Of a stretch of DNA of 36,890 nucleotides, positions 33,898 to 36,013 are shown in pieces (the first letter of the stretch is position 1; every line of letters starts with the position of its first letter). The position numbers were made by a program, and so were the translations under genes. The notes beneath the pieces were generated by a model. That model was given only the letters and a program-made list of their open reading frames with translations. It was not told the DNA's origin and searched no databases. The stretch comes from a virus, in the IMG/VR virus record IMGVR_UViG_3300000265_000008, positions 1 through 36,890 of that record; one strand, given 5' to 3'.

Positions 33898-33924
33898 AAA
33901 AAAGGGGGCATATTACTGCCCCCT
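33898..33924 (-). terminator. rho-independent terminator
   Basis: On the minus strand an 8-bp G+C-rich stem (GGGGGCA paired with TGCCCCC plus one A-T pair) with a 6-nt loop is followed by six T residues (33903-33898). It begins 5 nt after the stop of the gene at 33929-34129. It separates the small-gene region on the right from the late baseplate operon on the left. Confidence 0.88.
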
Positions 33925-33928
33925 GTGT

Positions 33929-34129
33929 TTAACTTAGTGCTGTGAGTGATCTTCTCAATTGTCGCTTAATCTGTGCAATGGCATAGTTATCACTTGGTGT
34001 CTTTGAGCATGTCTGAACTAAACCTAGATCAGGGTGTTTGTATTTCAAATGCTTAGAATCGTCGATGCAGATGAGACCTTCGGCAAACATGATTGAATCA
34101 ACTGTCTTGCGATACTTCCTGATGTTCAT
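33929..34129 (-). CDS. 66-residue protein, distantly HicA-like
   Basis: The protein starts MNIRKYRKTVDSIMFAEGL and contains S-K-H-L-K-Y-K-H at about residues 25-32, followed by S-K-T-P-S-D-N-Y-A-I and I-K-R-Q-L-R-R. This order (short helix, K/H-rich strand, strand, SPSD turn, basic helix) recalls small dsRBD-fold HicA-type proteins seen in phages. No HicB partner is visible next to it, so a toxin-antitoxin role is not supported. It is the last gene before the terminator at 33898-33924. Confidence 0.65.
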   Translation of the reverse strand: MNIRKYRKTVDSIMFAEGLICIDDSKHLKYKHPDLGLVQTCSKTPSDNYAIAQIKRQLRRSLTALS

Positions 34130-34162
34130 GTGATGTAGTGTGATGGGGTTAGTGTAGAGAAA

Positions 34163-34369
34163 TCAGACGAGGGCGTACTTGTTAACCCATACGCCTGCGC
34201 TCTGCTTCAGATTCAGGATGAGGCGCAGCATGTCACGGCGTCTCACCTTGTGGTTGCTGTAGTGAGGTGACTGCCAGAAGACCATGCATTGACGGGTCAT
34301 CGGGTAGAGTCTGATCTCTTGGGTTGCACTGCTCTGAGGCGTGGCGATGATGATGACTGGGTTGGGCAT
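34163..34369 (-). CDS. 68-residue hypothetical protein
   Basis: The protein starts MPNPVIIIATPQSSATQEI and has R-L-Y-P-M-T-R-Q-C-M-V-F-W, then K-V-R-R-R-D-M-L-R-L-I-L and G-V-W-V-N-K-Y-A-L-V. It is basic. Codons here are markedly richer in G+C than in the structural genes. An A/C-rich leader (ACACAACCAACAGCAC) precedes the ATG, as for its neighbours, with no Shine-Dalgarno. The function is unknown. Confidence 0.6.
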   Translation of the reverse strand: MPNPVIIIATPQSSATQEIRLYPMTRQCMVFWQSPHYSNHKVRRRDMLRLILNLKQSAGVWVNKYALV

Positions 34370-34393
34370 GTGCTGTTGGTTGTGTTCTTTGAT

Positions 34394-34404
34394 AGTCTAC
34401 AGGG
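34394..34404 (-). repeat. intergenic CCCTGTAGACT element, copy A
   Basis: The minus strand has GCCCTGTAGACT here. It is the most diverged of four copies because GACC is shortened to GC. It lies between the hairpin after the 73-residue gene and the A/C-rich leader of the next gene. Confidence 0.6.
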
Positions 34405-34429
34405 CAGGGGGTGCTATGCTGCCCCCCTG
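34405..34429 (-). other. G+C-rich hairpin after the 73-residue gene
   Basis: CAGGGGG (34405-34411) pairs with CCCCCTG (34423-34429) around 11 nt. An alternative GGGCAG/CTGCCC pairing is also possible. No T-run follows on the minus strand, so intrinsic termination would be weak. It may protect the 3' end or act in processing. Confidence 0.5.
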
Positions 34430-34439
34430 TAACACTAGT

Positions 34440-34661
34440 TCACAGTTCGGCAAGCATGGCATCCATCTCATCGGTGTCTACGTCATCGGACAACCAGGAG
34501 ATGCCATCGCCTGTGATGTACTCACCGAACTCATCGATGTAACGCTTCGCCCATGCTCTGTACCCTAGATTCTGGTTTGCTTTGGCATGGCGGTAGATCA
34601 TCTCATCGTTGCCGATCCAGAGAGCGACGTTCCATGTTGCGTGGTTTGCCCATCCGTTCAT
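34440..34661 (-). CDS. 73-residue DUF7249-like protein
   Basis: The protein starts MNGWANHATWNVALWIGNDE, the signature of a small family (N-H-A-T-W-N-V-A-L-W-I-x-N-D) that recurs in cyanophages, other phages and plasmids. The middle has Y-R-A-W-A-K-R-Y-I-D-E-F-G and the end V-D-T-D-E-M-D-A-M-L-A-E-L, also typical. No catalytic role is known to me. It is acidic and soluble, and in higher-G+C DNA than the structural genes. Confidence 0.82.
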   Translation of the reverse strand: MNGWANHATWNVALWIGNDEMIYRHAKANQNLGYRAWAKRYIDEFGEYITGDGISWLSDDVDTDEMDAMLAEL

Positions 34662-34705
34662 GCTGTGTCCTGTGTTGTGTTCTCTTGTATTGTAGTCGGT
34701 AGAGG

Positions 34706-34729
34706 GGCGTTGCCTAGGCGAGCAATGCC
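34706..34729 (-). other. hairpin with the stop codon of the next gene in its loop
   Basis: GGCGTTGC (34706-34713) pairs with GCAATGCC (34722-34729), eight positions including one G-T wobble, around an 8-nt loop. The loop contains the TAG stop (34714-34716) of the 75-residue gene. A terminating ribosome would cover this hairpin. Confidence 0.5.
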
Positions 34730-34941
34730 AGCTCCTGGGTTGTCACACTGGAGATGTCCTCTCCTTCATAGACACGAACCCATGGGATGGGTTGCCCTGA
34801 GGTGAGACGCCAGATCATTTGATCACCCTCGCGTTCCTGCTGTCTAATGGCGGCAATGCGGTAGGCACCTGCGATCGTGGGGGTATAGTCTGCCCCGAAC
34901 TCATCAAAGGTGACGAAGGAGGTTGGTTGAACTGCGAACAT
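34714..34941 (-). CDS. 75-residue hypothetical protein
   Basis: I place the start at ATG 34941 (MFAVQPTSFVTFDEFGADYTP). The longer frame to 35010 would translate through the repeated intergenic element. The product has A-G-A-Y-R-I-A-A-I-R-Q-Q-E-R-E-G-D, M-I-W-R-L-T-S-G-Q-P-I-P-W and V-R-V-Y-E-G-E-D-I-S, a compact beta-rich protein. It has no known family. The preceding leader is A/C-rich and lacks a Shine-Dalgarno. It ends in Leu-Ala within the hairpin at 34706-34729. Confidence 0.68.
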   Translation of the reverse strand: MFAVQPTSFVTFDEFGADYTPTIAGAYRIAAIRQQEREGDQMIWRLTSGQPIPWVRVYEGEDISSVTTQELALLA

Positions 34942-34970
34942 GATTTTGTTGGTTGTTTGTTGTTTTAATT

Positions 34971-34985
34971 CTACAGGGTCAGGGA
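34971..34985 (-). repeat. intergenic CCCTGACCCTGTAG element, copy B
   Basis: The minus strand reads TCCCTGACCCTGTAG followed by AATTAAAAC. It directly follows the hairpin at 34985-35003 and precedes a G-poor leader to the ATG at 34941. It is identical over 15 nt to copy C. Confidence 0.75.
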
Positions 34986-35003
34986 GGCAACCCCTAGTTG
35001 CCT
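34985..35003 (-). other. 7-bp hairpin after the 65-residue gene
   Basis: AGGCAAC (34985-34991) pairs perfectly with GTTGCCT (34997-35003), with loop CCCTA. It starts 7 nt past the stop at 35011 and abuts repeat copy B. There is no T-run. Confidence 0.6.
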
Positions 35004-35010
35004 GTGTCAC

Positions 35011-35208
35011 TCATCCGATTGTCCCACCCATCATCATGCTGTATTGTGAGATCTCCTTTACCTCCATGAGCACGTAATCAAACTCACTCTCAAGTTCTGC
35101 CTTGTAGGCATCTGCCGTTGATTGGCAATCAAAGAGGCGAAGGGATCTGATTGCCTCTCCCTCGTAATCAATGCCACCGATGACGACGATGCATTTGGGG
35201 TTGTTCAT
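35011..35208 (-). CDS. 65-residue hypothetical protein (IGGIDYEGE motif)
   Basis: Two in-frame ATGs lie 15 nt apart (35223 and 35208). I choose the second, MNNPKCIVVIGGIDYEGE, because the first falls in a leader shared word for word with the neighbouring gene and its GAGAAACG could serve as a ribosome site. The protein has V-V-I-G-G-I-D-Y-E-G-E at about residues 8-18, then S-L-R-L-F-D-C, A-D-A-Y-K-A-E-L-E-S and D-Y-V-L-M-E-V. This is a small alpha/beta protein of a kind found in several cyanophages. The function is unknown. Confidence 0.7.
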   Translation of the reverse strand: MNNPKCIVVIGGIDYEGEAIRSLRLFDCQSTADAYKAELESEFDYVLMEVKEISQYSMMMGGTIG

Positions 35209-35223
35209 GGTTTCGTTTCTCAT
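35202..35223 (-). repeat. 22-nt leader repeat, copy 1
   Basis: The minus strand has CATGAGAAACGAAACCATGA at the start of the 65-residue gene, and the same sequence precedes the gene at 35277-35468. It contains both candidate ATGs and an internal GAGAAACG. It suggests that one gene start was copied to the other or that the leader is functional. Confidence 0.8.
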
Positions 35224-35227
35224 GCTG

Positions 35228-35251
35228 TTAGTCTACAGGGTCAGGGAGGCA
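35228..35251 (-). repeat. intergenic CCCTGACCCTGTAGACT element, copy C
   Basis: The minus strand reads CCTCCCTGACCCTGTAGACT followed by AACAGC. It is identical over its core to copies B and D. It sits between a small hairpin (AGGGC/GCCCT at 35251-35263) after the 63-residue gene and the duplicated leader of the next gene. Confidence 0.78.
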
Positions 35252-35276
35252 GGGCATTGCCCTATGTGTCAGTGTC

Positions 35277-35468
35277 TCAGTCGTCCATCCCCATTGCTGC
35301 TTTCAGTGTGTTGTATGCATTCAGATAATAGTCTGCATCTGTATCCTTGCCATCGATGCGGCACTGACTAGCAATGGTAAGCAAGGCGGTTCGGATCGTG
35401 CTCCACTTTGCTTCAGTCAGGGTCACAGTGCAAAGGTCAAGTGGGAGGACGTTGGTTCGGACGTTCAT
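35277..35468 (-). CDS. 63-residue hypothetical protein
   Basis: As for its neighbour, two in-frame ATGs exist (35483 and 35468). The second gives MNVRTNVLPLDLCTVTLTE. The body has T-E-A-K-W-S-T-I-R-T-A-L-L-T-I-A-S-Q, then R-I-D-G-K-D-T-D-A-D-Y-Y-L-N-A-Y-N-T-L, a helical hairpin of a type common in small cyanophage proteins. There is no catalytic motif. It is in high-G+C sequence. Confidence 0.7.
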   Translation of the reverse strand: MNVRTNVLPLDLCTVTLTEAKWSTIRTALLTIASQCRIDGKDTDADYYLNAYNTLKAAMGMDD

Positions 35469-35483
35469 GGTTTCGTTTCTCAT
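35462..35483 (-). repeat. 22-nt leader repeat, copy 2
   Basis: This is the same CATGAGAAACGAAACCATGA as at 35202-35223, here at the start of the 63-residue gene. The coding sequences after it are unrelated, so the leader is shared but the genes are not. Confidence 0.8.
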
Positions 35484-35497
35484 GTGATTAGTGCAAA

Positions 35498-35611
35498 TCA
35501 GGAGCGTTGATCCTGAATAATTTCAACGGCAGCACGGGCACCGTCTAGTACATACTGACCATAGGCAGTGCCGACGATCAATGAGAGGGTACAGGCGAGA
35601 AAGGTTCTCAT
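35498..35611 (-). CDS. 37-residue microprotein with an N-terminal hydrophobic helix
   Basis: The ATG at 35611 opens 37 codons ending TGA. The protein is MRTFLACTLSLIVGTAYGQ followed by YVLDGARAAVEIIQDQRS. The N-terminus resembles a signal peptide or signal anchor: Arg2, a hydrophobic core, and A-C and A-Y-G near possible cleavage positions. After cleavage only about 20 residues would remain, so an anchored membrane peptide is more likely. It lies in the high-G+C small-gene cluster; no family is recognised. Confidence 0.6.
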   Translation of the reverse strand: MRTFLACTLSLIVGTAYGQYVLDGARAAVEIIQDQRS

Positions 35612-35648
35612 TAGTGACGATCCTAGATGTTGAGTGTTTTGAGTTGGT

Positions 35649-35744
35649 TCAGTCTCTATCTCTGTTTGCTTTGATTAACTCAGCATAGACTTTACCGACT
35701 AGTGCTGCACCGATCATACCGACTGCGAATGAGATTGGATCCAT
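35649..35744 (-). CDS. 31-residue hydrophobic microprotein
   Basis: The ATG at 35744 opens 31 codons ending TGA. The product MDPISFAVGMIGAALVGKVY continues AELIKANRDRD. Residues 4-20 form a small-residue-rich (Gly, Ala) hydrophobic helix with a charged C-terminus, as in tiny membrane peptides. It follows the A/C-rich leader pattern of its neighbours. With so few codons, chance cannot be excluded, but the amphipathic pattern and tight placement favour a real gene. Confidence 0.52.
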   Translation of the reverse strand: MDPISFAVGMIGAALVGKVYAELIKANRDRD

Positions 35745-35767
35745 GATTGTTCGTTTGTTTCTTTGAA

Positions 35768-35785
35768 TAGTCTACAGGGTCAGGG
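35768..35785 (-). repeat. intergenic CCCTGACCCTGTAGACTA element, copy D
   Basis: The minus strand reads CCCTGACCCTGTAGACTA immediately after the TGA of the gene ending at 35787, without an intervening hairpin. It is followed by TTCAAAGAAACAAACG, the same style of G-poor leader as after copy A. Confidence 0.78.
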
Positions 35786-35786
35786 G

Positions 35787-35972
35787 TCAGTGTCTGTCGC
35801 TGATGTTCCAGTTGCTGGACTGGTTGGGTTGGATGCGACCGGCACGGACTGCCTGCCTATACTCGTGTTCTGCCTGCTGTTGGCGTTGGATCTTCTCCAT
35901 GACGGTCAGCATCAGTGGCGAAGGGGTGCCAGTGGTGATGAATTGTCCGTTGCGTTGTGCTTTGTTTTCCAT
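35787..35972 (-). CDS. 61-residue hypothetical protein
   Basis: I choose ATG 35972 (MENKAQRNGQFITTGTPSP). The longer start at 36038 would lie inside a 7-bp hairpin (36014-36038). The product has a long basic-acidic helix (V-M-E-K-I-Q-R-Q-Q-Q-A-E-H-E-Y-R-Q-A-V-R-A-G-R) and the end N-W-N-I-S-D-R-H. The helix could be a coiled coil or could bind nucleic acid. No family is recognised. Confidence 0.6.
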   Translation of the reverse strand: MENKAQRNGQFITTGTPSPLMLTVMEKIQRQQQAEHEYRQAVRAGRIQPNQSSNWNISDRH

Positions 35973-36013
35973 ACTGTTAGTATGGCAGAGATGGGAGCAG
36001 AAATCAAGCGGTA

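Follow-up and report, generated by a model that had tools for sequence, protein, structure and literature searches.

A repeated, probable sigma70-type promoter core with a putative upstream activator site before single small genes of T4-like cyanophages

In T4-type phages, PeSLs (Arbiol 2010 and Comeau 2014, as summarized in PMC4503421) are described as units of a stem-loop and an early-type promoter that are repeated in the hyperplastic region, and in that summary gene indels between related phages break at the units; PeSLs were considered unlikely to explain the S-PM2 ORFanage, in which few are present (PMC4503421). Halovirus HF2, as far as the account in PMC8707807 goes, has short intergenic repeats that carry reporter-tested promoters. 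In Cluster K mycobacteriophages, a 13-bp asymmetric repeat termed SAS lies just upstream of the starts of many unrelated gene families, mostly in one orientation, and about half of the copies have an upstream imperfect inverted repeat, ESAS (PMC3203893). Cyanobacterial promoters have been divided into type 1, with a -35 and a -10 box, and type 2, in which a -10 box is joined by an activator motif that compensates for the missing -35 (PMC2758279). How cyanomyoviruses regulate early and middle transcription in the absence of MotA, AsiA, Alt and Mod has been called unclear (PMC2984593).

Here, we analyzed a stretch of viral DNA of 36,890 nucleotides (IMG/VR record IMGVR_UViG_3300000265_000008; hereafter the window), which is a fragment of a T4-like cyanophage whose nearest annotated relatives are Kyanoviridae Synechococcus phages, e.g. 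Syn1 and S-RIM44. A 17-mer recurs in its small-gene cluster, and we consider it probable, at roughly 0.77, that this element is a sigma70-type promoter core placed before single genes in a hypervariable island upstream of gp25/gp6 of T4-like cyanophages. The reading draws on observed positions, spacings, mutual exclusion of two upstream classes, synteny and altered neighbors at the element. The cluster and its element copies are as follows.

34163..35972, minus strand: cluster of eight small ORFs (31-75 aa) with PHROGs of unknown function; junctions carry the 17-mer elements
35769..35785, minus strand: element copy 1, CCCTGACCCTGTAGACT, exact match
35774-35769, minus strand: -10 box TAGACT of copy 1; predicted +1 A at 35762, downstream ORF ATG at 35744
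35230..35246, minus strand: element copy 2, CCCTGACCCTGTAGACT, exact match
35235-35230, minus strand: -10 box of copy 2; predicted +1 is the A of the ATG at 35223
34968..34984, minus strand: element copy 3, CCCTGACCCTGTAGAAT, with TAGAAT, 1 mismatch
34973-34968, minus strand: -10 box of copy 3; predicted +1 A at 34961, downstream ORF 34941-34714
34394..34410, minus strand: element copy 4, CCCCTGCCCTGTAGACT, left half altered, 3 mismatches, CCCTGTAGACT kept
34399-34394, minus strand: -10 box of copy 4; predicted +1 G at 34387, downstream ORF 34369-34163

As the first-pass annotation had noted, the repeat occurs four times on the transcribed strand; all four copies are on the minus strand, against 0.04 expected in shuffled sequence, and they lie 2.4-3.8 kb upstream of gp25. 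At the copy at 35769, a TGA stop directly adjoins the element. One cluster ORF, 34661-34440, was assigned to DUF7249. The G+C content of the cluster (34001-36000) is about 0.50 and that of the remaining window about 0.37, which suggests a different origin or codon pressure. A start block, ATGAGAAACGAAACCATGAAC, is common to two different genes (35468-35483 and 35208-35223, minus strand); at the former the -10 core is gone and TTGCACT replaces TAGACT, so that it resembles a decayed copy. CATACT at 35979-35984 (minus strand) is followed six nucleotides on by an ATG at 35972 and is a possible degenerate, leaderless fifth promoter.

Scanning IMG/VR for the 17-mer yielded at least 120 matches, and copy counts in relatives are those among the matches listed; because the copies come from exact-match searches, the invariance of the core is in part built in, which does not apply to the spacing results, and the mutual relatedness of the loci makes p-values indicative only. 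The element is present in cyanophage contigs and Kyanoviridae isolates, with 1-7 listed copies per contig (69-211 kb) that occupy one strand in each and are mostly clustered. Since psbA-family genes were found in eight of nine contigs of at least 90 kb, we regard the element-bearing contigs as cyanophages. At all 97 listed loci with gp25/gp6, every element copy shares the strand of that gene, mostly 1.9-6.3 kb upstream of it (12-13 kb at two loci), and both strand and place are constant although gp25 identity to the window drops to 32%. The first-pass annotation would have counted absence from junctions of related phages against its proposal; the element proved widespread. A host origin was rejected, as 257 Gb of bacterial and archaeal genomes held one match, no more than the few that chance would give. 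A literature text search with pieces of the 17-mer returned no cyanophage paper among the matches listed.

The geometry around the hexamer is that of a sigma70-type promoter. Across 129 clusters of listed matches, 99% have A or G (A 76%, G 23%) seven nucleotides past TAGAMT, and 99% have C or A just before this predicted +1; a purine thus stands where a start about 7 nt past the -10 box would be expected. In 171 diverged copies, found from homologous gene starts with the element not required, mismatches number 9 at T-12, 10 at A-11, 17 at A-9, 4 at T-7 and 67 at G-10, and TACAAT, TATACT and TATAAT replace TAGAMT at the same place, as the positional constraints of a TAtAaT hexamer demand. An extended -10 (TGn) was rejected, the TG lying one base too close. 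TAGAMT would therefore serve as the -10 box, with transcription predicted to start at the A or G seven bases downstream, and the resulting mRNA would be either leaderless or provided with an A/C-rich leader of 15-26 nt. Among 172 listed cases, the first ATG is located exactly 6 nt past the hexamer, at the predicted +1, in 33; the remainder have it at 21-32 nt, and none at 7-20. Several gene families with the ATG at +1 have no other nearby ATG and would therefore be leaderless, and additional ATGs soon after the +1 ATG are mostly in frame. For Prochlorococcus, the occurrence of leaderless mRNAs has been judged likely (PMC5607370). The leaders 3' of the window elements are A/C-rich without a Shine-Dalgarno sequence, as initially annotated, with the refinement that the gene after the copy at 35230 may be leaderless: its ATG stands 6 nt past TAGACT, and a second, in-frame ATG follows at 35208.

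Upstream of the core, the copies fall into subclasses. TTGAC is found at a spacer of 17 or 18 bp in 26 of 126 nonredundant listed copies and at none of the tested spacers of 12-16 or 19-23 bp; overall, about a quarter of the listed copies have a -35, only at 17/18 bp, and the window copies have none. Promoters with this TTGAC -35, often in a hairpin loop, would be read by unassisted host RNA polymerase. In the -35 class, e.g. at the L010 and L018 junctions, stem-loop and -35 are often fused, with TTGAC in the loop of a strong hairpin, as in GGGGCACC-TTGA-CGGGTGCCCC. No trade-off was seen between the TTGAC -35 and a CCCTGA half (5.17 versus 5.00 of 6).

A further conserved motif, absent from the first-pass annotation, lies upstream: the palindrome GTGACA-N10-TGKCAC at a fixed distance. 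Its instances in the window, together with one remote from the 17-mer, are listed below.

35004..35025, minus strand: operator-like dyad GGGACA-N10-TGACAC at copy 3; 10/12, right half 36 bp upstream of the -10
35266..35271, minus strand: right half-site TGACAC at copy 2; 36 bp upstream of the -10, at the dyad peak
34429..34434, minus strand: half-site-like TGTTAC at copy 4; 35 bp upstream of the -10, weak match
35805..35810, minus strand: half-site-like TGGAAC at copy 1; 36 bp upstream of the -10, weak match
34725..34746, minus strand: dyad GTGACA-N10-TGGCAT, 1 mismatch, in the C-terminal coding region of ORF 34941-34714
34694-34689, minus strand: -10 box TACAAT, 52 bp downstream of the start of the dyad left half; precedes ORF 34661-34440

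At all four copies in the window, the hexamers (TGACAC, TGACAC, TGTTAC and TGGAAC) start exactly 35-36 bp upstream of TAGAMT. Only the copy at 34968 has a good full dyad; the others match at 7-8 of 12 positions, the left half is not conserved at copy 2, and TGGAAC of copy 1 falls within the upstream coding sequence (NWNISDRH*). Among the listed copies, the dyad with a gap of 10 matches at 10 or more of 12 positions in 36 of 134 (shuffles gave 0.35), and the distance from the start of its right half to the -10 downstream is 35-38 bp. At a looser 9/12, it occurs in 67 of 100 listed copies without a -35 and in 0 of 34 with one; split by locus, 28 listed loci are dyad-only, 16 are -35-only and three are mixed, and the p-value of this exclusion overstates independence because the exclusion largely follows phage lineage. 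By the thresholds used, 33 of the 134 listed copies have neither.

Searching IMG/VR with the dyad alone gave 84 nonredundant sites among the matches listed, of which 59 are followed by TANNNT at 35-38 bp, against 7.7 expected, and only one of the 84 has the 17-mer core; the dyad promoter would therefore be wider than the 17-mer. The dyad at 34725-34746 with its TACAAT is, on sequence grounds, a promoter of the same class lacking the 17-mer. At the dyad-only loci L176-L292, a further TANNNT peak stands 42 bp from the half-site (15 listed sites), often as TACATT followed by CGT; these boxes are possibly a third promoter variant.

Base pairing between the dyad halves equals independence at every position, i.e. 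no covariation was found, which speaks against an RNA hairpin here and favors a DNA-binding-like site over an RNA stem. Copies without a -35 mostly have this operator-like site, centered near -54, in its place, and a putative phage or host activator would recruit the polymerase there. With a -10, no -35 and an activator-like motif at a fixed distance, these copies look like type 2 cyanobacterial promoters. One cyanophage-encoded transcription factor is known, of the MarR type (PMC9692554); no link between it and the dyad site was found.

The spacer raises a competing account, in which a phage-modified polymerase or another sigma factor reads the class without a -35 by recognizing CCCTGACCCTG together with TAGAMT, while a repressor binds the dyad. 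Conservation of CCCTGACC with the TAGAMT -10 does exceed what sigma70 requires: the conserved CCCTGACCCTG (-23 to -13) is unneeded by a sigma70 promoter and is not accounted for by sigma70 recognition. Moreover, cyanomyoviruses lack MotA/AsiA and have gp55/gp33 (PMC2984593). However, the same spacer block is also present in promoters with a TTGAC -35, and the dyad takes the place of the -35 and is never found together with it, which is how an activator site would behave. Promoters of gp55 are TATAAATA-like, a further point against this account, which we regard as unlikely. Under the sigma70-type reading, the strict CCCTGACCCTG block could stem from homogenization by exchange or from a further protein contact. 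Tentatively, and with somewhat less than even odds, we go further and propose that T4-like cyanophages have a dedicated, previously undescribed activator-dependent promoter (dyad near -54, no -35, C-rich spacer, TAGAMT, frequent leaderless starts) that forms a regulon over interchangeable single-gene cassettes, belongs to an early/middle control unlike that of T4 and uses its core as the exchange seam.

Hairpins accompany some of the junctions, and the cluster ends in a terminator.

35251..35263, minus strand: hairpin AGGGC-AAT-GCCCT at copy 2, between half-site and element; -7.8 kcal/mol
34985..35003, minus strand: hairpin AGGCAAC...GTTGCCT at copy 3, between dyad and element; -10.3 kcal/mol
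34405..34429, minus strand: hairpin CAGGGGGGC...CACCCCCTG at copy 4, overlapping the element start; -16.9 kcal/mol
33903-33924, minus strand: canonical intrinsic terminator AGGGGGC...GCCCCCT plus TTTTTT, 3' of the last small gene

Differing hairpins at a shared distance from the stop codon had been annotated before three of the copies; they are real and lie 7-13 nt past the stop, and the copy at 35769 has none. The 45 nt upstream of the listed copies show more structure than control windows do (mean z -0.86 versus -0.17, p 8e-6), but hairpins are not universal, z falling below -1.5 in 27% of listed copies versus 12% of control windows. None of the window hairpins is followed by a U-tract, unlike the terminator at 33924-33903, and we therefore do not call them terminators; the terminator stem is nevertheless similar to those of the junction hairpins. 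A pattern of stop codons in hairpin loops was discarded as barely above shuffles (36 versus a mean of 27.5 and a maximum of 35). The excess structure is what would be expected if hairpin and 17-mer together formed an mRNA processing site or the 3'-end site of the upstream gene, the former having been among the roles first suggested. This is very improbable: strong structure is confined to the minority of copies given above and missing at 35769, there is no U-tract, the dyad halves do not covary, no Rfam family matched above gathering, and promoter geometry fits the signals better. The role as a -10-like promoter, proposed alongside, is by contrast strongly supported by the -10 positions, the +1 purine, the spacing rules and the dyad, as far as sequence can speak for activity.

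The element also marks where gene content changes. Among the matches listed, it precedes many different ORFs, and 110 adjacencies arise around it from 40 protein families downstream and 56 upstream, so that the expectation that it would flank different small genes was borne out with at least 40 downstream families. When the window, Syn1, two S-RIM44 isolates and ACG-2014h are compared, the element is where homologous blocks meet, and stretches of 269, 539 or about 800 bp between its copies are present in some and missing from others. Across the listed loci, 30 of 86 distinct clean indels are at the element core, against 8.5 expected if all gene boundaries were equally likely, and leaders of different genes are 60% identical within a contig versus 42% between contigs. 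These patterns support homologous exchange at short repeats, for which no dedicated recombinase would be needed, since cyanomyoviruses possess T4-type recombination genes (PMC2984593). With the same core at many junctions in the same orientation, recombination would move whole genes, each keeping a promoter, and exchange between copies would keep the core homogeneous. Nucleotide four-gamete quads (n=7) were set aside as not clean, since leader-length gaps made homologous genes seem different. For the difference between S-RIM44 W2 and Sn, a plain fusion of two W2 copies was rejected, as the flanking gene differs in its leader too.

The earlier suggestion of a recombination joint thus holds as an additional property, with neighbors changing at the element in related phages and isolates. 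Whether the joint came first is a separate matter: the 17-mer might be kept mainly as homology for single-gene exchange, with its likeness to a -10 box secondary, and the changing neighbors, a core more uniform than a promoter needs and the homogenized leaders within contigs all suit that idea. Pure homology, however, gives no reason for the Pribnow-type positions, the purine 7 nt downstream, the 17-18 bp spacing of the -35 or the constant distance to the dyad, and 56 of the 86 clean indels lie away from the exact core; we judge this ordering improbable, slightly more so than the modified-polymerase account. On the promoter-core reading, for which we infer promoter activity, the activator and the recombination route from sequence, gain and loss of single small genes in abundant marine phages, with expression kept, would have a simple account. 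Syn1 and S-RIM44 carry this conserved, predicted promoter class with its own operator-like site and offer, for testing, start sites predicted to the nucleotide together with a putative binding sequence.

Set against the described systems, the element resembles PeSLs, as these are portrayed in the summary cited above, in having a promoter sequence within a repeated unit and indel breakpoints at the units (30/86 versus 8.5 expected). It differs from that portrayal in that its stem-loops are without U-tracts and are missing from many copies, so that the effective terminator of PeSLs is not seen, and in that many copies lack a -35 and have a fixed upstream dyad; although it works like a PeSL, we do not file it as one because the terminator feature is missing. 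It shares with HF2 short intergenic repeats in a virus genome, the cyanophage promoter being predicted from sequence; HF2 is an archaeal virus with an archaeal promoter type, and the account in PMC8707807, as far as it goes, describes no gene-swap joint or dyad. Like SAS/ESAS, it precedes unrelated gene families, mostly in one orientation and often with an upstream inverted repeat; SAS, however, is tied to the translation start and unrelated in sequence, whereas the cyanophage element follows -10, +1 and spacing rules. Its -35 and dyad subclasses match the type 1/type 2 split of cyanobacterial promoters, although the dyad differs from the NtcA site GTA-N8-TAC and that scheme includes no mobile, repeated promoter core (PMC2758279). 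Collectively, our comparison suggests that the element is a cyanophage variant of a shuffling promoter joint, combined with a putative activator site.
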